This document shows, piece after piece, positions 51,108 through 64,000 of a DNA stretch of 64,000 bases. Position numbers and translations under genes: made by a program. The notes under the pieces were generated by a model. That model searched no databases. It was not told the origin of the DNA and saw only the letters and a program-made list of their open reading frames with translations. The first letter of the stretch is position 1, and each line of letters opens with the position of its first letter. The DNA is from Gallaecimonas kandeliae (GTDB lineage Bacteria > Pseudomonadota > Gammaproteobacteria > Enterobacterales > Gallaecimonadaceae), in contig NZ_CP118480.1 in assembly GCF_030450055.1 (NCBI RefSeq), positions 3,719,501-3,783,500 of the forward strand. The letters are read 5' to 3'.

Positions 51108-53528
51108 TCATTCATTGCGCAGTGCCTTGATGGGGTCGTTACGCAACAAGGCCCTTGCCGGTAGATAGCATGCCAGGATGACACTGGAAAGCAGCGTGAC
51201 GATGATCAAAGACAGCAAAACAGGATCGACACTCAGCCACTGGTGCCAGTCCTGATCCAGCATCTCTGGCACCATCAGACTGATACCGAGTGCTATGGCA
51301 AGCCCAAGCAGTGAGGGATAAAGCCCATAACGCATCATAAGCCAACGTAATCCAGCCTGTTTGGCGCCCAGCGACATACGGATACCCATCTCGTATCTCT
51401 GGCTCTGATTTGCCATGCTCAATACCCCATAGATCCCCATATTGGCCAGCAATAGGGTGGCCGCCGCCAATATGATTGATATCGTCAATGTCAGTCGGCT
51501 GGCTCTATTGCTGCCTCGCACCAGTTCCTTCACCGATGAGGCATCATTGACAAAAAATGGCTTTGCCACCGATTGCAATACCTTTTCCAACCTGTCCTGA
51601 CGACCAGCTAAGGGCAATGCACTCTCTACAACTGCGATCAACTGCTGAGACACCTGGGGCTGTGAGCTGAAAACGGTTGGATAATAATCATCACTACCGC
51701 CAGGCCCATGATGATTTGCCACTATTCCAACAACTTCTACCAGGCTATTGCCAGGGATGCCGAGGTACATGAACAGCTTGGCCCCCAAAGCCTGCTCACC
51801 GCTAACCCTTTCGATCTGCCTTGCCAAATGCTGGTCAACAACAACCTTTCTCACATCGGCCAGACTGTCATCAGACGACAGATAACGCCCGGCAATAAGC
51901 CGGCTGTGGATTTGAGACAAATAGTTAGGCGATGCCCAAATGGCCTCCACCGTTGCCACCGGATGGTGATCCGCCGTGGTTATGGATTGCACTGAGACAC
52001 CACTTCTTATGGGACCATTGGAAGTGACCGAGGCAGCTTTGATGCCTGGGAACTTGAGCAGGGCCTTCTCCAGTCGAGGCGTGATTATTTTCAATTCATC
52101 TGCCGTCAGAGGCTGAGACCTGTCCCATCCCAGATCGACTTGGTATAAACCTGTCTGCTTGAAACCCAGATCGCGATTGATGACTGACCAAGCATTCTTC
52201 AGGGGCAAATGGGCGCACAGCACCAAGGTTGATGTCAGCACAACCTGGATCAAGATGAGACGCTGATTAGTAACCTTGGACAACTGTCTGGGTGTTCCTT
52301 TGCCACTGCTGTGGAGATAGAGATTGATATTGCGATCATCCAACATCCGACTCGGCAGCCAGGCAAATATAGCTGCGATGAAGAGGCTCAGAACTAGGGC
52401 AATCAAGATGCTGTATGGATCCAGGCTGAGGTGATTCAAGACGGGTAAAAACTCCGAGAGGCTATCGCGCAATGCCGGCTGGCTCCAGGCTGACAACAGC
52501 AATGCCAGAAAGAAGGCCATAAGCGTTATGGCCAAAGCTTCTCCCAAACGCTCCAACATCAATTGATGTGGCTTTGCTCCCAGGGACAACTTTATCGACC
52601 ACTCAGAGGTTCTTTGTTGGGCTCGGCTGAGATAAAGGTTGAGGAGATTGATTACTGTGATCAGCAACAAGGCCAGGGCCGAGATGAAGACGGCAGCGAT
52701 CACCAGGCCATACCCTTTGCTACTGGCCTTCTGTAGAGTCATCACTTTCAGGGTCAAACCCGCTCCCTCACCAAAGAAACGGGCATAATCGACTTCCTGA
52801 GATTTCTGGTTCAACTCTTGAGCCAAAGCTGCATCTGACTCATTCGGCATGGCACGCATGTAAACCGCAATATCGTAGATATTGATGTTATCTGCTTGAT
52901 AAGCGGGCAATTGCTCCCTGTCCGTGATCCGATAGTAGTCAAAATCCACTCTATCAGCCGGCTGCAAGCCAGGGGGATCACGATACCTCTCTGGCAACAC
53001 GCCGATGATTTGATAGTCTTGGCCGCTTAATTCAAGTACTTGGCCGACGATATCTGCCCGCCCACCAAAACGGGTTTTCCACACCCTATGACTTATCACG
53101 ACTGAATGGCCCGCTTCAGCGTCATCTTCCCTGAACAAGCGCCCTTTCATAGCCGTGACGCCAAGTAATTGGAAAAAGTGACTGTCTACCAGAACGCCAT
53201 GCCAGTTGCGAGCCGTACGCGCCTTCTGCTTGTCGTCTTGACTGGCATAGGTCATACGCTCGCTCAAAGAGGGGTCACTCAACCAGCGCTTCAGGGTTAC
53301 CGGGTTGTGTGCCGGCATCGAAAAGCTGCTGCTTTTGAACTGCCCCTCAACGACCCTGAGGTTGTCGGCTTGGCTATAGGGAAGTGCCTGCCACCAAGTA
53401 AGACTGGCAACGGCACTTACGGAGAGTAGTATCGCCAGGCTCAATGCCAGCACCGCGACCATGCTGACAGTGGCTGTTAGGCCTTGTATTTTTAATTGTC
53501 GCAGCCCCTGCTTGAGTTCATAGATCAT
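51108..53528 (-). CDS. Double-length MacB/FtsX-type ABC permease
   Basis: This 806-residue protein has an N-terminal helix (MVAVLALSLAILLSVSAV), a periplasmic MacB-like domain, three helices in the middle (for example GLVIAAVFISALALLLITVI), a second periplasmic domain and three more helices at the end. It is thus two MacB-type halves in one chain, about twice the usual 400 residues or so. It should act with the ATPase upstream by mechanotransmission, passing a periplasmic substrate through the adaptor to an outer-membrane channel. It is the last gene of the peptide operon; darobactin clusters have a permease of the same general kind. Confidence 0.88.
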   Translation of the reverse strand: MIYELKQGLRQLKIQGLTATVSMVAVLALSLAILLSVSAVASLTWWQALPYSQADNLRVVEGQFKSSSFSMPAHNPVTLKRWLSDPSLSERMTYASQDDKQKARTARNWHGVLVDSHFFQLLGVTAMKGRLFREDDAEAGHSVVISHRVWKTRFGGRADIVGQVLELSGQDYQIIGVLPERYRDPPGLQPADRVDFDYYRITDREQLPAYQADNINIYDIAVYMRAMPNESDAALAQELNQKSQEVDYARFFGEGAGLTLKVMTLQKASSKGYGLVIAAVFISALALLLITVINLLNLYLSRAQQRTSEWSIKLSLGAKPHQLMLERLGEALAITLMAFFLALLLSAWSQPALRDSLSEFLPVLNHLSLDPYSILIALVLSLFIAAIFAWLPSRMLDDRNINLYLHSSGKGTPRQLSKVTNQRLILIQVVLTSTLVLCAHLPLKNAWSVINRDLGFKQTGLYQVDLGWDRSQPLTADELKIITPRLEKALLKFPGIKAASVTSNGPIRSGVSVQSITTADHHPVATVEAIWASPNYLSQIHSRLIAGRYLSSDDSLADVRKVVVDQHLARQIERVSGEQALGAKLFMYLGIPGNSLVEVVGIVANHHGPGGSDDYYPTVFSSQPQVSQQLIAVVESALPLAGRQDRLEKVLQSVAKPFFVNDASSVKELVRGSNRASRLTLTISIILAAATLLLANMGIYGVLSMANQSQRYEMGIRMSLGAKQAGLRWLMMRYGLYPSLLGLAIALGISLMVPEMLDQDWHQWLSVDPVLLSLIIVTLLSSVILACYLPARALLRNDPIKALRNE

Positions 53529-53543
53529 GTAATCTCTCCCGGA

Positions 53544-54230
53544 TCAGATGGCCTTCCGTAAAGAATCATCTGTTACTAGGCCGCCATCCAGGAGCTGGAG
53601 ACGTGTCTTTGCCTCGGCAGCGAACTGAGGCTCATGTGTCACCATGCAGATGGTGGTACCCTTTTCGTTGAGGCTCTGTAATAGTGCCATTACTGCGAGG
53701 CTGTTTTTGGTATCCAGGTTACCCGTAGCCTCGTCCACCAACAGCAAACTCGGCTCGCCAACAATAGCCCTGGCAATAGCCACACGCTGTTGCTGACCTC
53801 CCGATAATTGATTGGGCCTGTGGCTCAATCTATGGCCCAACTCAACTTGGTTTAAGGCATTGCTGACCTTATCCTTTATCTCGTCACGGGGAATACCGCG
53901 ATAGTGCAGCGGCAACGCCACATTTTCAGCAACGGACAAACCGTCAATCAGGTTGAATGACTGGAATACCAGTCCTATATTCCTGTTGCGTACCTCGGAC
54001 CGCTGATCACTATCCAACAAGGTGACATCTTGGCCATTTATGGTATATCGCCCGGCACTGGGAGTATCCAGGAGCCCAAGAATGGACAGCAAAGTAGACT
54101 TGCCACAACCCGAGGGCCCTGAAATGGACAGGTAGTCTCCCTTAGATATGGTCAGATCAACTCCTCTCAGTGCATGGGTTTCCATTTCATCGGTCTGGTA
54201 GACCTTACTGATTCCTTCAAGCTGGATCAT
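53544..54230 (-). CDS. MacB/LolD-type ABC transporter ATP-binding protein
   Basis: This 228-residue ATPase has Walker A GPSGCGKSTLLSILG, signature LSGGQQQRVAIARAI, Walker B LLVDEATGNLD and the switch histidine in MVTHEPQ. It lies 15 bp upstream of the double-length permease and 34 bp downstream of the adaptor, so the three are one tripartite system. It energises export or immunity functions for the peptide; which of the two is not shown. Confidence 0.93.
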   Translation of the reverse strand: MIQLEGISKVYQTDEMETHALRGVDLTISKGDYLSISGPSGCGKSTLLSILGLLDTPSAGRYTINGQDVTLLDSDQRSEVRNRNIGLVFQSFNLIDGLSVAENVALPLHYRGIPRDEIKDKVSNALNQVELGHRLSHRPNQLSGGQQQRVAIARAIVGEPSLLLVDEATGNLDTKNSLAVMALLQSLNEKGTTICMVTHEPQFAAEAKTRLQLLDGGLVTDDSLRKAI

Positions 54231-54264
54231 GTTTCCTTACCTCATTTTTTATACAAAGATCGTT

Positions 54265-55521
54265 TCAACGGATGTAGAGTCTCTGAACATCACTGTCTTT
54301 CCAGCGTTGGGTATCAGAAATGATAACAACGTCTCCTTCATCCAGGCCCTTGTTAACTTCTATGAAGCGATCCGTCTCAACCCCATAACGAACACTGACC
54401 AGCTCAGCACTATCATCTTCTTTATCTAATCGATAAAGGCCATCCAGCCCAGAATCTTGGGCTTGATAAGGCCTCTTTACATAAAGGACATTTTTTAAAA
54501 CACCACTGCTGATGGTACCCTCAACGACAAGAGATGGTCTGGCATTACGAGGAAGTTTTCCAGATAAGGTAACCTCAACAGTAATACTTCCCTGATCCAC
54601 CACAGGGACTATTCTCGAGACCTTTCCTTGGACTACACCACGCCGGGTATCGATAACGGCGGCATCACCAAGACTGATTTGATCAGCGCGTCGTTGTGGC
54701 ACTTTCAAGCTCGCCAATAATTCACGGTCTGAGCCAACCAATGCTAACTCAGTGCCTACGGCTACACTCTGACCCAGTTCCACATTAAGATGTTGGATCA
54801 CACCTGATATACCGGCCTTGACATTCATTGAATCAAAGCGCCGTTTAAGCAGCGTTACTTTGGTATTTCCTTGCTTTAATAGGTCCTGCTGTACCAAACG
54901 TGCCTGTCCCTGAAGATCACGTAATTTTTCAAGCCTTGCCTTCTCGAAACTAATTTGCTGCTCTAATTTCTTTACTTGCATCTTGCTTTTGGCTAACTCA
55001 AGGCGGGAGACGATCTTCTTCTTGGCCAGTTCTTCATTTGCTTCAAATTCCAAGCGGCTGATTTCCAAATCCCCTTTCAGTGACTCAAGTCGGCTCATTT
55101 GCTGTAACAGTTCGTTAGCCTGACTCGCCTCCAACTGCTTAGCTTTAGCTCTGGACTGGCTCTGCGCCAGTTCTGCATTTGTCACTTCCTGCTCTAAATC
55201 AGGGTTGGCAAGCTTAAGAATGATGTCACCCGGCTCAACCCTTTGCCCTGGCTTCAGCAAGATTTCTTCTACTACGGCTGCTGCAGGAGCTGTCAAAAGG
55301 CGCTGTTTGGCTGGAATAAGTTCACCGTACCCCTTTATCTCCAGAGGAACGTCACCTCTTTCAACCTTAGCTGTAACGACTGCATCGGCAGCAACGACAT
55401 GGCTCGCCATTGGCCTGGAAAACTGCCAAGCGGTAAAAAGAGCAACGGCAACTACTGCAACTGCGACCAGTACCTTGCTACCAGCCTTCTTCTTACTCTT
55501 GGAAACCTTGGGTATATCCAT
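54265..55521 (-). CDS. MacA/HlyD-type periplasmic adaptor
   Basis: This 418-residue protein has one N-terminal helix (VLVAVAVVAVALFTAWQF), a lipoyl half-motif (EEILLKPGQRVEPGDIIL), a long coiled-coil hairpin (about 110-225), the second lipoyl half (GVIQHLNVELGQSVAVG), a beta barrel and a proximal domain. It should couple the ATPase-permease pair to an outer-membrane channel encoded elsewhere. GC content is low compared with the chromosomal RND adaptor at 30886-32001, which belongs to a different pump. Confidence 0.92.
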   Translation of the reverse strand: MDIPKVSKSKKKAGSKVLVAVAVVAVALFTAWQFSRPMASHVVAADAVVTAKVERGDVPLEIKGYGELIPAKQRLLTAPAAAVVEEILLKPGQRVEPGDIILKLANPDLEQEVTNAELAQSQSRAKAKQLEASQANELLQQMSRLESLKGDLEISRLEFEANEELAKKKIVSRLELAKSKMQVKKLEQQISFEKARLEKLRDLQGQARLVQQDLLKQGNTKVTLLKRRFDSMNVKAGISGVIQHLNVELGQSVAVGTELALVGSDRELLASLKVPQRRADQISLGDAAVIDTRRGVVQGKVSRIVPVVDQGSITVEVTLSGKLPRNARPSLVVEGTISSGVLKNVLYVKRPYQAQDSGLDGLYRLDKEDDSAELVSVRYGVETDRFIEVNKGLDEGDVVIISDTQRWKDSDVQRLYIR

Positions 55522-55613
55522 TAATTTATTTCCCGAAGGTTGATCTTGACCTATTAATTCCTAAAAGAGGCAAGAATAGGTACACTTATTTTCCGGTTTT
55601 ATTGTCATGGCTT

Positions 55614-57785
55614 TCAAACAGCCTCCACATCCAACTTGAGTTGGGGTTCTCCAATACTGTTGTCATGCATGGCCAGTGCTTCCATCTTGCTCACCTCACT
55701 GATCCTTCCATCCCTCAGCAGCAGAACACGATCAGCTCTCAACAGAGTTTCCGGCCTATGAGCTATACATAGACGCGTCAGGGGTAAACGACTTAATTCG
55801 TCAAGAACCGTTTTCTCATTCTCGCTGTCCAGATTAGCGGTTCCTTCGTCCGCAAGCAGGATTCTGGGATTATGATATAAGGCCCTTGCCAGCAGGATGC
55901 GTTGCTTCTGTCCCCCAGATAAGGTCGAGCCCAGATCGCCTACGGGTGTGTTGTACTTCATCGGCATTCTCATGATTTCTTCATGGATGTTTGCTTGCTT
56001 TGCCGCCTGCTGCACTTGCTCAAAATCGGCCCAGGGATCTTCAAAGGCGATGTTGTCAACAACCGAAGCACTTAATAGCCTGTCATCCTGCATAACAACA
56101 CCAAATTGGCGGCGATACCATCCACTCTCCAATTCATCAATGGGTACTCCATCCAACTCGATCCTCCCCGAGGCCGGCTTGTAGAGGCCCAGCATCACCT
56201 TAAGAAGAGTTGTCTTACCGGAACCAGACGGGCCGATGAGTGCGACAAACTCGCCCGGATGGATAGTAAGGTCGACATCAGCCAGAATCGGCAGATCCGC
56301 CACCGCATAGGCAAAATTGACGCTCGAAAGAGTCAGCCGCCCTTCAACACCATCACTCACCAGCCTGCCTGAGGAGACCTCTGGTTCCGGGTTGGCAAGC
56401 ACTATGTCTGCCAACCTGTCCAGATAAACACCAACGTACTTGATATCAAGAAGGCTGGTGATCAACGCATTTCCCTTAATGGAAAATTGGCTCTTGTACA
56501 TGAAAAAAGCAAATAGCGTACCTATTCCCATAGTTCCGTTCAGAACAAGCTCGCTACCAAAATAGACACATAGAGCGGTATCTATACCTAGCACAACAAT
56601 ACGAACACTATTCTGAGTTTGAATAAAGGAAGCCAACTTGACCTCCGACTGCATCAAAGCGCTATACTTGTTCTGCCATACATTTAAACGATCTTCTTCC
56701 TTCGCAAATATCTTTATTGGCGACATACTCCGTAACGTCTCAATGACAATGCCCGTCTCTCTTTCTTTTGCCTTTATCTTGTCTCTCAACTTCAGCTCAG
56801 TTAGATTTGAGCAGTACCAGCGAAATCCCAGGTAGAAGAGGAATGAACCAATAGTAATCAACCCAAGAACAGGTGATATGTAGAATATTGCTGTACCGAC
56901 ACCCAAGGCAATGGCACCGTCCAGAACAACACTGACCAAGTTAGACGTTAACAGTGTCCGTAATTGCTCTGTCGAATGATATTTTTCAATGAGATCGCCG
57001 GTATTACGTTTTTCGAAGTAGGACAAGGGAAGAGAAAGTAGGTGTGAAAAAATACTGCGCACAAAGAATTGATTAAACTGAGTTCCCATGTAGATACCTA
57101 CATAGTCTCTCATCAAGCTCAAGAGGCTTTGCACTAGAGCTACTAATATGAAACTGAGGGCCAGCCACTTGACAAGACTAAGATCGTTAAGATCAATACC
57201 GTAGTCTACAGAATATTTTACGAATAGAGGACTAGCCAAGGAGACCAGCTCCAATAGCAGCGTTAACCATATAGTCTGAACCAGGATCTTTCGTGTTCCC
57301 TTAGTGTTACTGAAAAGCCATTTCAGCCCAAGGCGCCCTCCCTGTGGCCTAAGTGAAAAATCACTACCTGGCTGTATCTCAACAACAACACCGGTAAAGT
57401 GCCTTGCGAACTCATCTTGCTTCAAACACCTAACACCAAGGGCAGGATCATGAATATAGTAACGTCCGTTTTTTATCTTCTTGAGTACGACAAAGTGATT
57501 GAAGTCCCAATGCAGTATCGCGGGTAGCCTTATTCTCTCCAGGCCTTCTACGTCACACTTTACTGGTCTACTCACGAGCTGGTACTGATTAGCAATACTG
57601 ACGACCTGCTTAAGGGTGATCCCCTTAAGCGAGACAGGATAGCTCTCCTGTATTGCCGTTATGGTGACAGGCTTACCATGATGTTGCATAACCATGGCTA
57701 GACAAGCGAGACCACAAGTGGAGGCCTCTGTCTGGTAAATCATGGGCAAACGGCGCCAAGAAAGAACCTTTTCAAAAAACTTCAT
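55614..57785 (-). CDS. C39 peptidase-containing ABC exporter
   Basis: The ATG at 57785 gives 723 residues. The N-terminal C39 domain (about 10-140) is intact: Gln19 and Cys25 in YQTEASTCGLAC, His98 in DFNHFVVLKK and Asp114 in YIHDPALG. Six membrane helices follow (about 165-440) and then a nucleotide-binding domain with GPSGSGKTTLLKVM, LSGGQKQR and ILLADEGTANLD. Such proteins cut leaders after GG, GA or GS and export the core. The precursor encoded upstream ends its leader in GA, which fits. Its start overlaps the mini-adaptor gene by 14 bp. Confidence 0.95.
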   Translation of the reverse strand: MKFFEKVLSWRRLPMIYQTEASTCGLACLAMVMQHHGKPVTITAIQESYPVSLKGITLKQVVSIANQYQLVSRPVKCDVEGLERIRLPAILHWDFNHFVVLKKIKNGRYYIHDPALGVRCLKQDEFARHFTGVVVEIQPGSDFSLRPQGGRLGLKWLFSNTKGTRKILVQTIWLTLLLELVSLASPLFVKYSVDYGIDLNDLSLVKWLALSFILVALVQSLLSLMRDYVGIYMGTQFNQFFVRSIFSHLLSLPLSYFEKRNTGDLIEKYHSTEQLRTLLTSNLVSVVLDGAIALGVGTAIFYISPVLGLITIGSFLFYLGFRWYCSNLTELKLRDKIKAKERETGIVIETLRSMSPIKIFAKEEDRLNVWQNKYSALMQSEVKLASFIQTQNSVRIVVLGIDTALCVYFGSELVLNGTMGIGTLFAFFMYKSQFSIKGNALITSLLDIKYVGVYLDRLADIVLANPEPEVSSGRLVSDGVEGRLTLSSVNFAYAVADLPILADVDLTIHPGEFVALIGPSGSGKTTLLKVMLGLYKPASGRIELDGVPIDELESGWYRRQFGVVMQDDRLLSASVVDNIAFEDPWADFEQVQQAAKQANIHEEIMRMPMKYNTPVGDLGSTLSGGQKQRILLARALYHNPRILLADEGTANLDSENEKTVLDELSRLPLTRLCIAHRPETLLRADRVLLLRDGRISEVSKMEALAMHDNSIGEPQLKLDVEAV

Positions 57786-58188
57786 CAAAGAATCTCACTC
57801 TTGATATCAGGAGAAGCTCCTGTGGTACCGTCGACAGTGGGGAATCCAAGGTCAAAATCTTGCACTTTCCCCCGTTCTCACCTTTGCAGTTTTCCCAAGA
57901 TAAAACGTTCGGCCCCGACTTGACTCTTAAATTATGAGAAGAGGGGGGAAGGGAATGCTTAAGGGTTACTCTGTAGGTTGGTCTACCAGGCAGCTTTTCA
58001 GTTGCAACTGCGGATATCTGATGGGTTACTGGGACGTTAGCCACACCAAAGCCCAAGGCTATTAATAATAGTAAGGGTAAAAAAATTACAACCCAGCCAT
58101 TGATGGGACGAGCAGCATTAGGTTCTCCAAGCAACCGATACCGATAATGCTTCCTAGCTTCCTCGAGAAAGAGTTCCGAATGTTCCAT
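57772..58188 (-). CDS. Mini-adaptor: HlyD-like N-terminus without the hairpin and barrel
   Basis: This 138-residue protein begins like CvaA/HlyD-type adaptors: a short charged cytosolic part (LFLEEARKHYRYRLLGEP), one membrane helix (about 32-52) and the strand VTHQISAVATEKLPG. Where a lipoyl domain and coiled coil would follow, only about 70 residues remain, with two cysteines in NCKGENGGKCK. Neither the lipoyl motif nor the barrel is seen. It overlaps the exporter gene, so it probably works with it, as a small periplasmic or membrane subunit. A truncated relic is the alternative. Confidence 0.7.
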   Translation of the reverse strand: MEHSELFLEEARKHYRYRLLGEPNAARPINGWVVIFLPLLLLIALGFGVANVPVTHQISAVATEKLPGRPTYRVTLKHSLPPSSHNLRVKSGPNVLSWENCKGENGGKCKILTLDSPLSTVPQELLLISRVRFFDEVF

Positions 58189-58197
58189 ACTGGAGAC

Positions 58198-59379
58198 CTA
58201 TGCCATGTCCATCAATTCAGATTCCGGAATCTTCAGCAATGCCTCTCGCAAAGGCTGATACAGGCTCATTCCCAACTCCGTTAAGTACTGCCGGTTCTGC
58301 TCCAGACCAACTGATAGTTCACGCATGTAATAAATTGCCTTTTTGTCCCTGTCTCCAAGCGCCTTCTCTAGGCCAGCCGCCCTCAATGAAGAATAGGCCA
58401 ACATGACATTGCCAAAAGCATGGTAGCCAGTCAGAAGCAGGAAGAGCGGTCTTTCCTTGTCCTTCAATGGCGAATAAACGGTAGGAGCATCCTCGGTTAC
58501 CAGAGATTCCAGACAAAATGCCAAGTTGAAGTATTGATGGGAGCACTCATGAATCAACATTTCAAGCGTTTCAAAGGGAGAAGCGGGGCAGGCAATCTCT
58601 ATGGCACCGAAACGATAACGAATAGAGGCACTTGCCAAAGTATCTGCAGCCGGCCTTTGGATTGGAACAACCTCGTGCAGGACATTCCTTATCCAGTGTC
58701 CATATTGAGGTACATAGCGGTCAGCCAACGCCAAGGCCTCTTGGACCTGGGCAACCATGCCTTCGCCTTCGCCTTCGCAAGGACAATTAACCGCGTCCAC
58801 CCAATATGACCAAAAGTCCTGATTCAAGCTCCCCAAAGTCCCGTAACCCACTCGCGATGGTTCTATCACGACTTCATCTTGGCTGGTGGTACCGATCAAA
58901 CGCCCCCCTACATACTGGCGCTTTACAGCCATAACCGTAGAGCCATCCGTATCCAACACCTCTAGGCTATTCTGACAAGCGAGGGCCCGATAGTGCCCGG
59001 GAGGTAAAATCTTGCCTTGCAGGAGTAGGCCGCTCCTGCATTCAAAGTCCATGGATAAGTCGTCGATAAGGCCGGTCAAATAGGCAGTCAGTAAAAACTG
59101 GGTCCTGAGTTCAAGTACGGTTTCCCAATCAACTGAATCCAGCCCAAATGCCTTCAACAGGCACCCCACTTCCGGCCGCCAGAAAGGTTTGCCAGGGTCG
59201 ACCCGCTCCAACTGCAATAAGGCATCGGCGATAACTACATCCTCACCACCTTGGAACTGCCGCAGTAACTTTTGGATCTTGGCTCCCGCCTTCTGCAATT
59301 GGTGTGCAGAAAGCAACCCTACGAGCTCAATGTTGTCTTCATCGGACACAGGTAACGAAAACTGGGGTATTTCAGCCAC
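58198..59379 (-). CDS. HExxH-motif protein, putative peptide beta-hydroxylase
   Basis: This 393-residue protein starts with GTG (AAGGA upstream) 15 bp after the radical SAM gene. The N-terminal half is helical and of unclear role. The C-terminal part carries HECSH (277-281), then YSPLKDKERP and GYHAF with His320, matching the TIGR04267-type HExxH maturases, which I recall being named alpha-ketoglutarate HExxH peptide beta-hydroxylases. Classical zinc peptidases also use HExxH, but the ERP and GYHAF pieces favour the peptide-modifying family. Predicted role: hydroxylating beta carbons of the core peptide, probably at or near His. A (CTTCGC)3 tract codes for its GEGEGEG run. Confidence 0.72.
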   Translation of the reverse strand: MAEIPQFSLPVSDEDNIELVGLLSAHQLQKAGAKIQKLLRQFQGGEDVVIADALLQLERVDPGKPFWRPEVGCLLKAFGLDSVDWETVLELRTQFLLTAYLTGLIDDLSMDFECRSGLLLQGKILPPGHYRALACQNSLEVLDTDGSTVMAVKRQYVGGRLIGTTSQDEVVIEPSRVGYGTLGSLNQDFWSYWVDAVNCPCEGEGEGMVAQVQEALALADRYVPQYGHWIRNVLHEVVPIQRPAADTLASASIRYRFGAIEIACPASPFETLEMLIHECSHQYFNLAFCLESLVTEDAPTVYSPLKDKERPLFLLLTGYHAFGNVMLAYSSLRAAGLEKALGDRDKKAIYYMRELSVGLEQNRQYLTELGMSLYQPLREALLKIPESELMDMA

Positions 59380-59394
59380 GGCTATGTTTCCTTA

Positions 59395-60651
59395 CTATAC
59401 ATGGACACGCAGAATTTCATTGCCCTTATCTACAACTTGGACAATGTTTGTATTTAGGCCATCTCGGGCAGAGTAAGTGGGCTCCTTGGAAAGGACGTCA
59501 CTCATTTCTTCCAATGTAAGTCCTTTATCGGACAAGTATTGAGCAATAGAGGTATGAATAAAGTCCATTGTCTTACAGAAGACCGTCTTATCCTTGAACC
59601 CCTCAGCCTTCTTATAGCGATTGAACAAGGCTCCTCCCCGGCAGGATCGGTACCACTCACACCCTTCACAAGCATCCGGCTTTTCGTCAACGGCCTTTAT
59701 TAATGATTGCCAAAGTTCCGAGTGGAGGAATTGGTTAAGGGAGGTATTAAAGATATTAACTTCCTTGTTCAGCAGGGTACCATCCAGTGACAGAATATTG
59801 TCATCGACTCCCAACTGTCCTTCGCTGCTGACATTGATTATATTGTGCTGCATGGCCTTATGCTCATCGACACGCCCTGCATATTGTTCCGACATCAGCA
59901 TCCCAAATATTCGATTAAGAGTGTTTATGTAGAGCTTTCCACCCTTCTGTTGGGTGGACCAGTAATCTATTACGCCCTTGAAATAATCTATCCACTTATC
60001 CTGCTGGGACAAAATATTGCTGTCATGACCTTCTCTTGGAAAAAGAAGGTCAAAATTATGAAGGCCAAGCTCCTGGTGCATATGTTTAACCAGCTCGGCA
60101 CCGTTGTAATCGACGTTAGCGACACAAAGAGCCCCCGTAGATGGGATCCTTCCCTGCTTGGCTGCATCCGAGAGGATACGTATCCCTCTCACCGTCTCCT
60201 CATAACTGCCCTTGCCATTGTGATCGATTCTATTCTTATCATGTATATCTTTAGGTCCATCGACACTGACACCAACATGAACCTGATATTTTTCAAATAT
60301 ATTTACCCACTCATCATCTATTAAAGTGCCGTTTGTCTGGCACATTAATTTTAAAGAGCAATAAGGAGAGAGTCCATCAGATAGAATCTTGCATATTTTC
60401 TCAAAATGGCTTTTTTTCATCAGTAATGGCTCGCCTCCATGCAACCCTATATTTACCGATTCAAGTCCAACATCATCGATGGCATTCTTTACAAAAACAA
60501 CCAGCTGCTCCACAGTCGAAGTTTTAATAACTGCAGTGTTCTCCTTGTAGGTATCCATTTCCTGAAAGAAGAAATAGCAGTATCGACAGGCTAGGTTACA
60601 TCTCTCTGATATTTTCAGAACGATATCTATTCCCTTCCGTGGCGCCGGCAT
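59395..60651 (-). CDS. Radical SAM/SPASM peptide maturase, cyclophane-forming type
   Basis: This 418-residue enzyme has the radical SAM cluster CNLACRYC (Cys18, Cys22, Cys25) and GGEP (72-75). A SPASM-type segment at 328-359 reads CEGCEWYRSCRGG and ends in VFC, giving Cys328, Cys331, Cys337 and Cys359. It resembles maturases that build cyclophane cross-links in triceptides (XyeB-like). With the precursor upstream, the predicted reaction is carbon-carbon bond formation between the His ring and the beta carbon of a nearby residue in each HxS unit. This is inference; thioether formation is the other possibility. GGAG precedes its ATG. Confidence 0.85.
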   Translation of the reverse strand: MPAPRKGIDIVLKISERCNLACRYCYFFFQEMDTYKENTAVIKTSTVEQLVVFVKNAIDDVGLESVNIGLHGGEPLLMKKSHFEKICKILSDGLSPYCSLKLMCQTNGTLIDDEWVNIFEKYQVHVGVSVDGPKDIHDKNRIDHNGKGSYEETVRGIRILSDAAKQGRIPSTGALCVANVDYNGAELVKHMHQELGLHNFDLLFPREGHDSNILSQQDKWIDYFKGVIDYWSTQQKGGKLYINTLNRIFGMLMSEQYAGRVDEHKAMQHNIINVSSEGQLGVDDNILSLDGTLLNKEVNIFNTSLNQFLHSELWQSLIKAVDEKPDACEGCEWYRSCRGGALFNRYKKAEGFKDKTVFCKTMDFIHTSIAQYLSDKGLTLEEMSDVLSKEPTYSARDGLNTNIVQVVDKGNEILRVHV

Positions 60652-60776
60652 AAAAAACTCCTATTCTTTGAATTTATTAATTCTTACTGTCATGTCGCGA
60701 ACAGACCCTGACGTGTCCTGCCGATAGATGAATAGATCATGGCAAGCAACACCCCATTCCTTAGGTATCACGCTCA

Positions 60777-60798
60777 CCCCATGTTTTCTGACATGGGG
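60777..60798 (-). other. Second hairpin in the precursor-maturase gap
   Basis: On the minus strand CCCCATGT-CAGAAA-ACATGGGG forms an 8-bp perfect stem. No T run follows. It could stabilise the processed 5' end of the maturase mRNA. Confidence 0.5.
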
Positions 60799-60804
60799 GC
60801 AGCC

Positions 60805-60840
60805 ATAAAAAGGTATGGACAAGCGCCATACCTTTAAAAA
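60805..60840 (-). terminator. Attenuator-like terminator after the precursor gene
   Basis: On the minus strand AAAGGTATGG-CGCTTGT-CCATACCTTT is a perfect 10-bp stem that runs into TTTTT and is preceded by an A/T-rich stretch. It sits 20-50 bp after the precursor stop, so it would make precursor RNA much more abundant than maturase RNA. Confidence 0.65.
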
Positions 60841-60861
60841 TAAAGACACTCTACAAATGTC

Positions 60862-61044
60862 TTAGAGTTGTGACTTTTCGGCACCAGTTGACAGGTGGCC
60901 AGATGCATGGCCAGAGCCATGGGCAGAACCGTGGATCATGGCGCCGCTGATCATTTCCAGATGCTCTTCCCTCAATTCAACGATTTCATTTTGCTTCTCA
61001 GAAGAGACGTTCAGGCGCTGAGCCAGTTTTTCTTGCAGTTTCAT
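60862..61044 (-). CDS. RiPP precursor peptide with four His-Xaa-Ser units
   Basis: This 60-residue peptide (AAGGGA 6 bp upstream of the ATG) has a helical charged leader, ending in a double-glycine-type motif: Leu24, Leu29, Ile32, Gly34 and Ala35 take the -12, -7, -4, -2 and -1 positions. Cleavage by C39 after Ala35 leaves a 25-residue core. The core holds HGS, HGS, HAS and HLS at 38-40, 42-44, 46-48 and 50-52, exactly 4 residues apart, and ends GAEKSQL without Cys. It is the natural substrate for the maturase, HExxH protein and exporter that follow. Confidence 0.85.
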   Translation of the reverse strand: MKLQEKLAQRLNVSSEKQNEIVELREEHLEMISGAMIHGSAHGSGHASGHLSTGAEKSQL

Positions 61045-61393
61045 AACATTCCCTTTTTTGATGAGTTTAAAGATACCGACACTCCATAAGACGGCAACAA
61101 AACGCTAACAACCAAGAGAGTCAGGTGTCAACATTGGATCACAAAATAACCTATTGTTTCGCAACTCGTCGTACCTCACGATACCGATAAGGGGATCATC
61201 CCACGCCAAATAGCCATACAGACGTCCACACAGCAACATGATGTCAGGATCCTTCTACGATGCTCAGTCCAGCCAGGCCCCACTCCCTTGTACGCTTAGC
61301 ATGGACAAGCGGGCCGGTACCGACGACTCTTGCCCTGGGCTGCTCCCCCCTCGTGATGGGGAACCAGCAAAAAATAGCGTTGTCCGAGCCACC
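61045..61393. other. Divergent intergenic region
   Basis: This 349-bp stretch separates the precursor and acpH starts. Its left part, to about 61240, is AT-rich like the peptide operon; the rest is GC-rich like the chromosome, so the island border probably falls inside it. No convincing gene or inverted repeat is seen apart from the tentative minus-strand promoter. Confidence 0.5.
61102..61131 (-). promoter_or_regulatory. Possible promoter of the peptide operon
   Basis: On the minus strand a perfect -35 TTGACA (61126-61131) is followed after 18 bp by TAGCGT (61102-61107), a weak -10. It lies about 60 bp before the precursor start. Confidence 0.3.
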
Positions 61394-61889
61394 ATGAACT
61401 TCCTGGCCCACCTGCATATTGCCGACCATTGCGACAGCAGCCTGCTGGGCAACCTGCTGGGCGACTTCGTGAAGGGGGAGCCCCAGGCGCAGCTGGCGCC
61501 GAAACTGGCGGCCGGGGTGATGCTGCACCGCTTCGTGGACTCCTACAGCGACAGCCATCGGCTCACCCGGGCCGCCAAGGAGCTGTTCCCGGGCCGGGCC
61601 AGGCGCTTCTCGCCCATAGCCCTGGACATGTTCTGGGACCACTGCCTGGCAAGGCGCTGGGCCGATTTCCACCCAGAGTCCCTGCGCGCCTTCTGCCAAA
61701 ATGCGGAGCTGCTGATCCAAGGTGAGCACAGTGGCGACTTACCGCCCCGCTACCTGCAGGTCTCGGCCAGCATGTGGCGAAACCGCTGGCTCGAATCCTA
61801 CCGGGACTTTGCCACCGTCGAGCTGGCTCTGGAGCGCATGTCGGGGCGCAGCCCCAGGATGGCCGAGCTGGTAACTTGCTTCCCTTACC

Positions 61890-61898
61890 TGGAACAAG
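61890..61898 (+). repeat. Target-site duplication, left copy
   Basis: TGGAACAAG precedes the left end of the first IS and is repeated at 62947-62955. The 9-bp length is as expected for IS903-group elements. Confidence 0.95.
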
Positions 61899-61916
61899 GG
61901 CGTTGTTTCCCAAATC
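61899..61916 (+). repeat. Left terminal inverted repeat of IS copy 1
   Basis: GGCGTTGTTTCCCAAATC pairs with the complement of 62929-62946. Confidence 0.93.
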
Positions 61917-61975
61917 CGGTGAACCAATCCGCCTGACTGTGATCCGATCCCCGACGTATCGATGGGGAACAGCAG

Positions 61976-62890
61976 ATGGGTCAGGCTAAACGCACTATCA
62001 CCAATTGGGCAGACTACAACCGCGCCTTGGTTAACCGAGGCTCATTAACCTTCTGGATGGATGAAGCGGCTACCCGCCATTGGCATTGCCAACAGCATCA
62101 CGGCGGTCGGGGTCGTGGTTTCGAATACAGCGACACCGCCATCGAGACAGCGCTGATGCTCAAGGGCCTGTTCGACCTGCCGCTGCGTGCCTTGGAAGGC
62201 TTTATCAACTCGCTATTCCAGTTGATGGAACTGCCGTTGACCTCGCCCAGTTACAGCTGCATCAGCAAGCGCGCCAAGACGGTCAACATCCGCTACCGCC
62301 TGCCCAGCAAGGGCCCAGTTGCCCACCTGGTTATCGACGCCACCGGGCTCAAGGTCTAAGGCGAAGGGGAGTGGAAGCAACGCAAGTACGGCAAGGAGAA
62401 GCGCCGTGTCTGGCGCAAGCTACACCTGGCCGTCGATGCGCAGACCCATGAGGCTATCGCCGCCGAAGTCAGCCTGGAAAACGTCGGTGATAGCGAGGTA
62501 CTGCCCGGCCTGCTCAATCCTCTGCGCCGCCGTATCGACCAAGTCAGCGCCGACGGGGCTTACGACAGCAGAGCCTGCCACCGGCTACTGCAAAGAAAAG
62601 GCGCCAAAGCCAGCATCCCGCCTCGCAAGACAGCGGGGTACTGGGAGCAAGGTCACCCAAGGAACGAGGCAGTGGCGGCGCTGAAAGCCGGGCAACTGGC
62701 CGAGTGGAAAAGGGAAAGCGGCTATCACCAACGCTCAAAAGCGGAAACGGCTATGTCGCGATACAAGCAGCTCATCAGCCCGAAGCTGAGTCTGCGCGAC
62801 TACAACGGCCAAGTGGCAGAGGCTTTGGCTGGGGTGAAGGTGATGAACAAAATGCTGGGCCTCGGCATGCCTGTTCGCCAGGTCAGTTAA
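61976..62890 (+). pseudogene. IS5-family transposase, nonsense codon
   Basis: The frame would encode 304 residues with the IS903-like start MGQAKRTITNWADYN and DDE residues in HLVIDATG, ADGAYDS and KAETAMSRYK. Codon 128 (62357-62359) is TAA where the second copy has TAT, so translation stops early. Further small differences from copy 2 include a G for C near 62370 and an Arg for Ser codon in ADGAYDSRA. Loss of function is probable unless supplied in trans by copy 2. Confidence 0.92.
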
Positions 62891-62928
62891 GGGCAGCAAG
62901 CCCTTTAGGAGCAGGCTTTCCAGGCTCT

Positions 62929-62946
62929 GATTTGATCAACAACGCC
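62929..62946 (-). repeat. Right terminal inverted repeat of IS copy 1
   Basis: Its complement reads GGCGTTGTTGATCAAATC, 15 of 18 identical to the left end. Confidence 0.93.
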
Positions 62947-63197: not shown

Positions 63198-64000
63198 GGC
63201 GTTGTTTCCCAAATCCGGTGAACCAATCCGCCTGACTGTGATCCGATCCCCGACGTATCGATGGGGAACAGCAGATGGGTCAGGCTAAACGCACTATCAC
63301 CAATTGGGCAGACTACAACCGCGCCTTGGTTAACCGAGGCTCATTAACCTTCTGGATGGATGAAGCGGCTACCCGCCATTGGCATTGCCAACAGCATCAC
63401 GGCGGTCGGGGTCGTGGTTTCGAATACAGCGACACCGCCATCGAGACAGCGCTGATGCTCAAGGGCCTGTTCGACCTGCCGCTGCGTGCCTTGGAAGGCT
63501 TTATCAACTCGCTATTCCAGTTGATGGAACTGCCGTTGACCTCGCCCAGTTACAGCTGCATCAGCAAGCGCGCCAAGACGGTCAACATCCGCTACCGCCT
63601 GCCCAGCAAGGGCCCAGTTGCCCACCTGGTTATCGACGCCACCGGGCTCAAGGTCTATGGCGAAGGCGAGTGGAAGCAACGCAAGTACGGCAAGGAGAAG
63701 CGCCGTGTCTGGCGCAAGCTACACCTGGCCGTCGATGCGCAGACCCATGAGGCTATCGCCGCCGAAGTCAGCCTGGAAAACGTCGGTGATAGCGAGGTAC
63801 TGCCCGGCCTGCTCAATCCTCTGCGCCGCCGTATCGACCAAGTCAGCGCCGACGGGGCTTACGACAGCAGCGCCTGCCACCGGCTACTGCAAAGAAAAGG
63901 CGCCAAAGCCAGCATCCCGCCTCGCAAGACAGCGGGGTACTGGGAGCAAGGTCACCCAAGGAACGAGGCAGTGGCGGCGCTGAAAGCCGGGCAACTGGCC
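63198..64000 (+). mobile_element. IS903-group insertion sequence, copy 2, cut by the window edge
   Basis: It begins with the same left end as copy 1, in the same orientation, exactly 1299 bp further on. If full length it would end near 64245. The right end and target duplication are outside the window. Confidence 0.95.
63275..64000 (+). CDS. IS5-family transposase, partial at window edge
   Basis: The frame from ATG 63275 is open to the end of the window (242 codons). The first two acidic DDE residues are seen in HLVIDATGLKVYGEGEW and ADGAYDSSA; the third lies outside. It has TAT where copy 1 has a stop, so this is the copy most likely to supply active transposase. Confidence 0.93.
   Translation, partial: MGQAKRTITNWADYNRALVNRGSLTFWMDEAATRHWHCQQHHGGRGRGFEYSDTAIETALMLKGLFDLPLRALEGFINSLFQLMELPLTSPSYSCISKRAKTVNIRYRLPSKGPVAHLVIDATGLKVYGEGEWKQRKYGKEKRRVWRKLHLAVDAQTHEAIAAEVSLENVGDSEVLPGLLNPLRRRIDQVSADGAYDSSACHRLLQRKGAKASIPPRKTAGYWEQGHPRNEAVAALKAGQLA

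Follow-up and report, generated by a model that had tools for sequence, protein, structure and literature searches.

XyeB, YhhB and FxsB are maturases that form cyclophanes in ribosomally synthesized and post-translationally modified peptides (RiPPs). The reviewed enzymes join an aromatic side chain to the Cβ of the residue two positions on, through C2(His)-Cβ(Ala), C2(His)-Cβ(Arg), C4(Phe)-Cβ(Ser) or C6(Trp)-Cβ(Arg/Asn) bonds (PMC11002830), and the W-x-R motif is known from XncB (PMC11002830). A further tailoring step is provided by ChlH, an alpha-ketoglutarate (alphaKG)-HExxH enzyme that acts on cyclophane peptides, where it hydroxylates His and Asp residues and depends on the staple (PMC12636437). 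Here we describe a gene cluster in a 64,000-nucleotide stretch of Gallaecimonas kandeliae (assembly GCF_030450055.1, contig NZ_CP118480.1, positions 3,719,501 to 3,783,500; the whole stretch is hereafter the window). Judged from its sequence, the cluster is rather likely to be a triceptide-type RiPP operon, whose His/Ser-rich peptide would be stapled, hydroxylated, exported by a C39 transporter and passed on through a relay of three further export genes (the trio).

The eight-gene operon and its recurrence

The operon span, read on the minus strand from 61044 to 51108, contains eight open reading frames (ORFs), all on that strand and separated by short gaps or overlapping. From 5' to 3' they encode a precursor peptide, a radical S-adenosylmethionine (SAM)/SPASM maturase, an HExxH protein, a small membrane protein (the mini-adaptor), a C39 exporter, a membrane-fusion protein, an ATPase and a permease. 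Gene families were assigned independently through Pfam and NCBIfam scans with curated cut-offs. A first-pass annotation of the DNA had proposed a complete RiPP operon of eight co-directional genes in an AT-richer island; the ORFs, their order and their motifs are as it described, and GC content is 48.2% in the operon against 64.8% in window bases 1-50000 (47% in the five-gene core, 50% in the trio).

The same annotation had asked whether precursor and maturase recur together, and whether the eight genes do so in other genera. Both kinds of recurrence were found. Among five genomes of the genus, one besides the window genome, G002, carries the five-gene core without the trio, with identities to the window of 76% (maturase), 56% (HExxH protein), 29% (mini-adaptor) and 72% (C39 exporter). 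A genome of a different genus and class, G728, carries all eight gene kinds on one strand (locus L110). Its 37-aa precursor ends in VAGG-AGHSSWNRTGRG, with a core that holds H-S-S together with W-N-R, that is, H-x-S plus the known W-x-R motif. Its maturase is XyeB-like (270 bits, 33-35% identical), and it is accompanied by an HExxH protein (60 bits), a 51-aa HlyD-like anchor, a C39 exporter, a permease, an adaptor and a DarD-like ATPase. Near the G728 gene set we also noted, by eye, a TraG/VirD4-like coupling-protein frame (L110 10847-12139), which suggests a mobile context.

Beyond these genomes the HExxH protein is scarce. Relatives were found in 3 of 99 genomes of the order, one marginal match included, and the same two alone were convincing in a set of 316 genomes; the class yielded 3 of 369, two of them marginal. 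No relatives were found in viral contigs and phages, and sampling around G728, in 289 genomes of its class and 30 of its family, gave no second full-length relative. Across the phylum, 398 genomes were scanned with the TIGR04267 model, and 15 exceeded its curated cut-off. Among the fetched neighbourhoods of these fifteen, a count that leaves out G724 and G693 (known by family match alone), a radical SAM gene adjoins the HExxH gene in just three cases: the window, G002 and G728. So rare and scattered a distribution is what cargo moved between lineages would show, and the cluster appears to have been acquired horizontally.

Precursor and modifying enzymes

The precursor (60862..61044, 60 aa) has a double-glycine-type leader that can be read directly from the sequence, ending in LEMISGA (AVAGG in G728), and its predicted mature peptide is MIHGSAHGSGHASGHLSTGAEKSQL. 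Four conserved H-x-S units in this core supply the aromatic-X-Y motif that marks triceptides, and H-x-S fits the aromatic-to-Cβ, two-positions-on rule of the related enzymes. When the letters of the predicted 25-aa core were shuffled, four H-x-S units were reached in 68 of 200,000 trials. Precursor and congener precursor are 83% identical: the core block HGSAHGSGHASGHLS, which carries the H-x-S repeats, is invariant, and the flanking residues and C-terminal tails differ. The XyeA model (TIGR04495) matched weakly and in the leader only, at 13 bits against a cut-off of 33.

The maturase (59395..60651, 418 aa) retains the CNLACRYC motif and the SPASM cysteines. Its best model was XyeB (311 bits), followed by YhhB (212) and FxsB (172), each below its own cut-off, which for XyeB (TIGR04496) is 450. 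In a tree it clustered with XyeB-type enzymes and not with YhhB or FxsB, although the tree did not resolve a sister relation between the window-G002 pair and G728. Family scores and tree together place it among the cyclophane-forming radical SAM/SPASM enzymes of triceptides, and its closest structure match is ChlB. A search of maturase patterns against 84,980 species genomes returned no close relative, the only match being an archaeal one at 31%. The link to darobactin drawn by the first-pass annotation extends to the type of pump and not to the maturase: with DarE at 75 bits against a cut-off of 650, daropeptide membership is ruled out.

The HExxH gene (58198..59379, 393 aa) encodes a member of the alphaKG-HExxH peptide beta-hydroxylase family, with HECSH at residues 277-281 and a TIGR04267 score of 73 bits, above the cut-off of 40. 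A profile of the HExxH proteins matched the ChlH structure 8s5f and also 22nu. The invariant His320 (in YHAFGNV) aligns with a Phe in ChlH, where a His sits four residues further on; this difference may mark a distinct sub-branch. An AlphaFold2 model of the protein alone had a predicted local distance difference test score of 38.7, too low for comparing folds. As the radical SAM/SPASM enzyme and the HExxH protein belong with known cyclophane and hydroxylase systems, a tailored triceptide is to be expected. The suggestion of a new class is not supported, given an XyeB-like maturase and an HExxH protein whose curated family includes ChlH.

Export genes, the proposed pathway and its rivals

The C39 peptidase-containing ATP-binding cassette (ABC) exporter (55614..57788, 724 aa) has Peptidase_C39, ABC_membrane and ABC_tran domains, which with the GA leader identify a peptidase-containing exporter of double-glycine-type precursors, cleavage being predicted. 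The mini-adaptor (57772..58188, 138 aa) returned no family in the Pfam and NCBIfam scans; it resembles an N-terminal HlyD anchor without the coiled-coil and lipoyl parts, and occupies the gene slot of the full-length HlyD in Xye operons. Beginning about 90 bp past the exporter and co-directional with the core, the trio consists of a periplasmic membrane-fusion protein (54265..55521; TIGR01730, 99.7 bits against a cut-off of 94.9), a DarD/LolD-like ABC ATPase (53544..54230; DarD model NF038007) and a duplicated, ADOP-like MacB_PCD/FtsX permease (51108..53528; assigned from Pfam and NCBIfam, under the ADOP model cut-off). Only the kind of module matches DarBCD, with scores of 52 against a cut-off of 700 bits for DarB, 59 against 450 for DarC and 251 against 375 for DarD.

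In both full operons, those of the window and G728, the HlyD anchor is truncated (138 and 51 aa) and a MacB-type trio is present. The Xye-type operons of Xenorhabdus and Paracoccus, by contrast, have a full-length HlyD (406 and 432 aa) with a C39 exporter and no trio; the pattern is drawn from these four operons, and one further operon departs from it. Between the window and G728 the trios are not close orthologues (ATPase 52%, adaptor 24% and permease 21% identical), which suggests separate recruitment in the two lineages. The window adaptor has a paralogue at another locus of the same genome, with about 40% identity, and the G728 adaptor is nearer to DarC (236 bits against 59 for that of the window). 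No RiPP core accompanies a further adaptor-ATPase pair with a permease, which we observed at loci L037 and L038, in the window genome and the congener G003. Compared with the window trio, its adaptor is about 40% and its ATPase 59% identical; the copy in the window genome adjoins a LysR gene.

We reasoned that these genes could act in a single pathway. The XyeB-type maturase would abstract hydrogen from the Cβ of each Ser and bond that carbon to the imidazole ring of the His at two positions before; as many as four His-x-Ser cyclophanes could form in tandem. The alphaKG-HExxH enzyme would then hydroxylate the stapled peptide, most likely at the Cβ of His or of a neighbour. After cutting past the SGA site, the C39 exporter would carry the peptide over the inner membrane, and with its HlyD partner reduced to an anchor, export would halt in the periplasm. 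From there the MacB/DarBCD-type trio would expel the peptide and protect the producer, working with an outer-membrane channel whose gene lies outside the operon. MacB-family pumps take their cargo from the periplasm and not across the inner membrane (PMC8277102); it is from this, together with the truncated HlyD beside a trio in both full operons, that we infer the relay. Antagonism towards other bacteria is the probable function of the peptide, and a metal-binding role is possible.

Several observations weigh against this pathway. A His-Ser cyclophane was not found described in the accessible literature. The HExxH enzyme departs from ChlH in the putative third metal-ligand region, at His320, and the reaction here could differ, since another member of the family, PflC, combines hydroxylation of Gln with backbone cleavage (PMC12636437). 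The comparison of the mini-adaptor with the HlyD profile was weak (E 0.0054, probability 6.7%), and neither a separate immunity gene nor a target is apparent. Finally, G002 has the mini-adaptor but no adjacent trio, and for that reason the relay would either not be obligatory or use a chromosomal pump. The trio that the first-pass annotation counted as part of the set is accordingly present in the window but optional.

The core without a trio in G002 also speaks for the alternative that fares best, in which the operon makes an ordinary Xye-like triceptide, the C39 exporter alone secretes it, and the MacB/ADOP trio either has nothing to do with the peptide, as mere cargo, or serves self-immunity only. 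Trio-like pairs with a permease exist without a RiPP core elsewhere in the window genome and in G003, and the formation of darobactin does not need DarBCD (PMC9055067). However, another class also has a mini-adaptor/C39 core linked to a trio of this kind, though one of different source, and the window trio follows the exporter closely in the same direction. We regard this alternative as plausible, while leaning against it.

The HExxH protein might instead trim or cleave the peptide, as a metalloprotease or by PflC-like oxidative backbone cleavage, and not act as a hydroxylase here. Its motif is common to proteases, and PflC, besides its oxidative backbone cleavage, is proteolytic without the leader (PMC12636437). 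Yet leader removal is already supplied by the C39 domain, and the protein exceeds the hydroxylase-family cut-off and aligns with ChlH, making this proposal an unlikely one.

We give a similarly low rating to the mature peptide being a Cu/Ni/Zn binder. The predicted peptide has four His and an N-terminus like the amino-terminal copper and nickel motif, the third residue past the predicted cleavage point being His in each of the three precursors (GA|MIH, GA|AAH and GG|AGH), and other His-cross-linked RiPPs are reported to bind copper (PMC10206099). The pattern comes, however, from only two independent lineages, coordination may change if His3 is stapled at C2, and no metal-regulated promoter or metal-transport gene was recognised. 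Membership of the His-Xaa-Ser (Hxs) systems, which the first-pass annotation had raised, is very improbable and refuted at the level of family models: the precursor does carry the H-x-S motif, but with the HxsB model the maturase reaches 80 bits where 370 are required, there is a single radical SAM gene, and no HxsC or HxsD match occurs among nine operon ORFs.

Genomic setting and nearest known systems

Alignment with the congener revealed a conserved 28-base block in the upstream or 5' untranslated region of the precursor gene (61076..61103, minus strand, GTTTTGTTGCCGTCTTNNGGAGTGTCGG), a possible control site. In the five congeneric genomes scanned it is present only at the window locus and the congener locus, and no regulon for it was found. 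Between precursor and maturase lies a hairpin with a U tail (60809..60835, minus strand), conserved in both genomes with folding z-scores of -3.1 and -2.7. RNA folding revealed this hairpin; an automatic terminator scan missed it, probably as the stem absorbs the U run. It is likely a leaky terminator or attenuator that would raise the ratio of precursor to enzyme. A 62-aa ORF in the same spacer (60661-60849, minus strand) is most likely not a gene: it matches no Pfam or NCBIfam family, and the congener lacks it and retains the hairpin alone.

The operon sits between glmS and a DUF885-type gene, and the G002 core occupies the same interval in the same orientation. In a third genome of the genus, G004, this interval holds no RiPP operon and instead a type II cyclic-oligonucleotide-based antiphage signalling system (CBASS) operon with phospholipase effector, cyclase, E1-E2 and JAB genes (L130 4475-8731). 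With a RiPP operon in two congeners and CBASS in G004, the interval downstream of glmS is a variable-cargo site in the genus. The stretches read showed no recognisable Tn7 transposition genes. Between operon and glmS in the window are two IS5-like insertion sequence copies, 99.7% identical and in tandem orientation (61899-62946, and 63198-64000, continuing to window-coordinate 64245); the first transposase has an internal stop, and the second is an open frame of 304 aa. An AcpH-like gene (61322-61936) extends with its last codons into the first of these copies, at the left end, which has probably changed the C-terminus of the encoded protein. In G003, too, an AcpH gene lies near glmS.

We noted further candidate precursors beside related maturases. 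On pNC201 of Pseudoalteromonas sp. NC201 (L097 8671-10158), an unannotated XyeB-like maturase gene follows a precursor rich in Y-x-Q (YAQ, YGQ, YDQ, YTQ, YSQ) and precedes a gene whose 524-aa product bears an HEVFH motif of its own. In G271 a precursor-like ORF with YNQ/THTQ/YTQ repeats (L076 2819-3058) lies upstream of an interrupted XyeB-like gene, and in G447 two small His/Asp-rich precursor-like ORFs (L075 11438-11839) lie upstream of a cyclophane-type radical SAM gene.

If correct, the proposed pathway would extend the triceptides by a staple between His and Ser and by tailoring through a stand-alone HExxH enzyme, and would offer a compact, testable enzyme set for peptide stapling. Handover from a C39 exporter to a MacB-type pump would explain why some RiPP operons have two ABC exporters, and the distant second copy in G728 allows direct comparison and co-expression work. 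More tentatively, the operons could represent a distinct sub-class of tailored triceptides, defined by tandem His-x-Ser cyclophanes, stand-alone alphaKG-HExxH hydroxylation, a relay from C39 and vestigial HlyD to a MacB/DarBCD-type pump recruited independently at least twice, and possibly an X-X-His metal site; we hold this composite to be doubtful.

The Xye operons (xyeA-xyeB-aspartyl-protease-like gene-HlyD-C39 exporter, as on Xenorhabdus bovienii plasmid NZ_FO818638) share with the window the order of precursor, XyeB-type maturase, third gene, HlyD slot and C39 exporter, as well as a double-glycine leader. They differ in that the maturase is 35% identical, the third gene encodes a 287-aa protein in place of the HExxH enzyme, HlyD is not reduced to an anchor, no trio is added, and the core carries W-x-N/R instead of H-x-S. 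ChlA/ChlB/ChlH likewise pairs a cyclophane-forming radical SAM enzyme with an HExxH hydroxylase that acts on His and Asp of the stapled peptide; there the two enzymes are fused, whereas in the window they are separate, with an XyeB-type maturase, another putative third metal ligand and another precursor. In YhhABC (Vibrio echinoideorum plasmid, L101) a cyclophane radical SAM enzyme is followed by a 2-oxoglutarate oxygenase and the motifs contain His/Tyr, but the annotation makes YhhC a 2OG-Fe(II) oxygenase and not an HExxH protein, the operon has no exporter, and the maturase is 23-25% identical. A plasmid of Rhodococcus sp. DMU1 (L100) has neighbouring, separate radical SAM and HExxH genes as the window does; its maturase, however, is of the FxsB type, the system is actinobacterial, its operon has no C39 exporter or trio, and the HExxH protein is about 27% identical. 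Darobactin DarA-E is a radical SAM RiPP with an adaptor/ATPase/duplicated-permease pump, but the DarE chemistry and the precursor are unrelated, and C39 and HExxH proteins are absent. One by one, then, the cyclophane radical SAM enzymes, HExxH hydroxylases, C39 exporters and MacB/Dar-type pumps are known, and the pairing of cyclophane and oxygenase is known from ChlBH and annotated in YhhABC. The first-pass annotation knew of no described cluster with this gene set, and we too found no description of an XyeB-type maturase with a stand-alone HExxH enzyme, an H-x-S repeat core and two export systems in the literature searched, which excluded most subscription journals. What looks new is the combination, as a variant of the triceptides.

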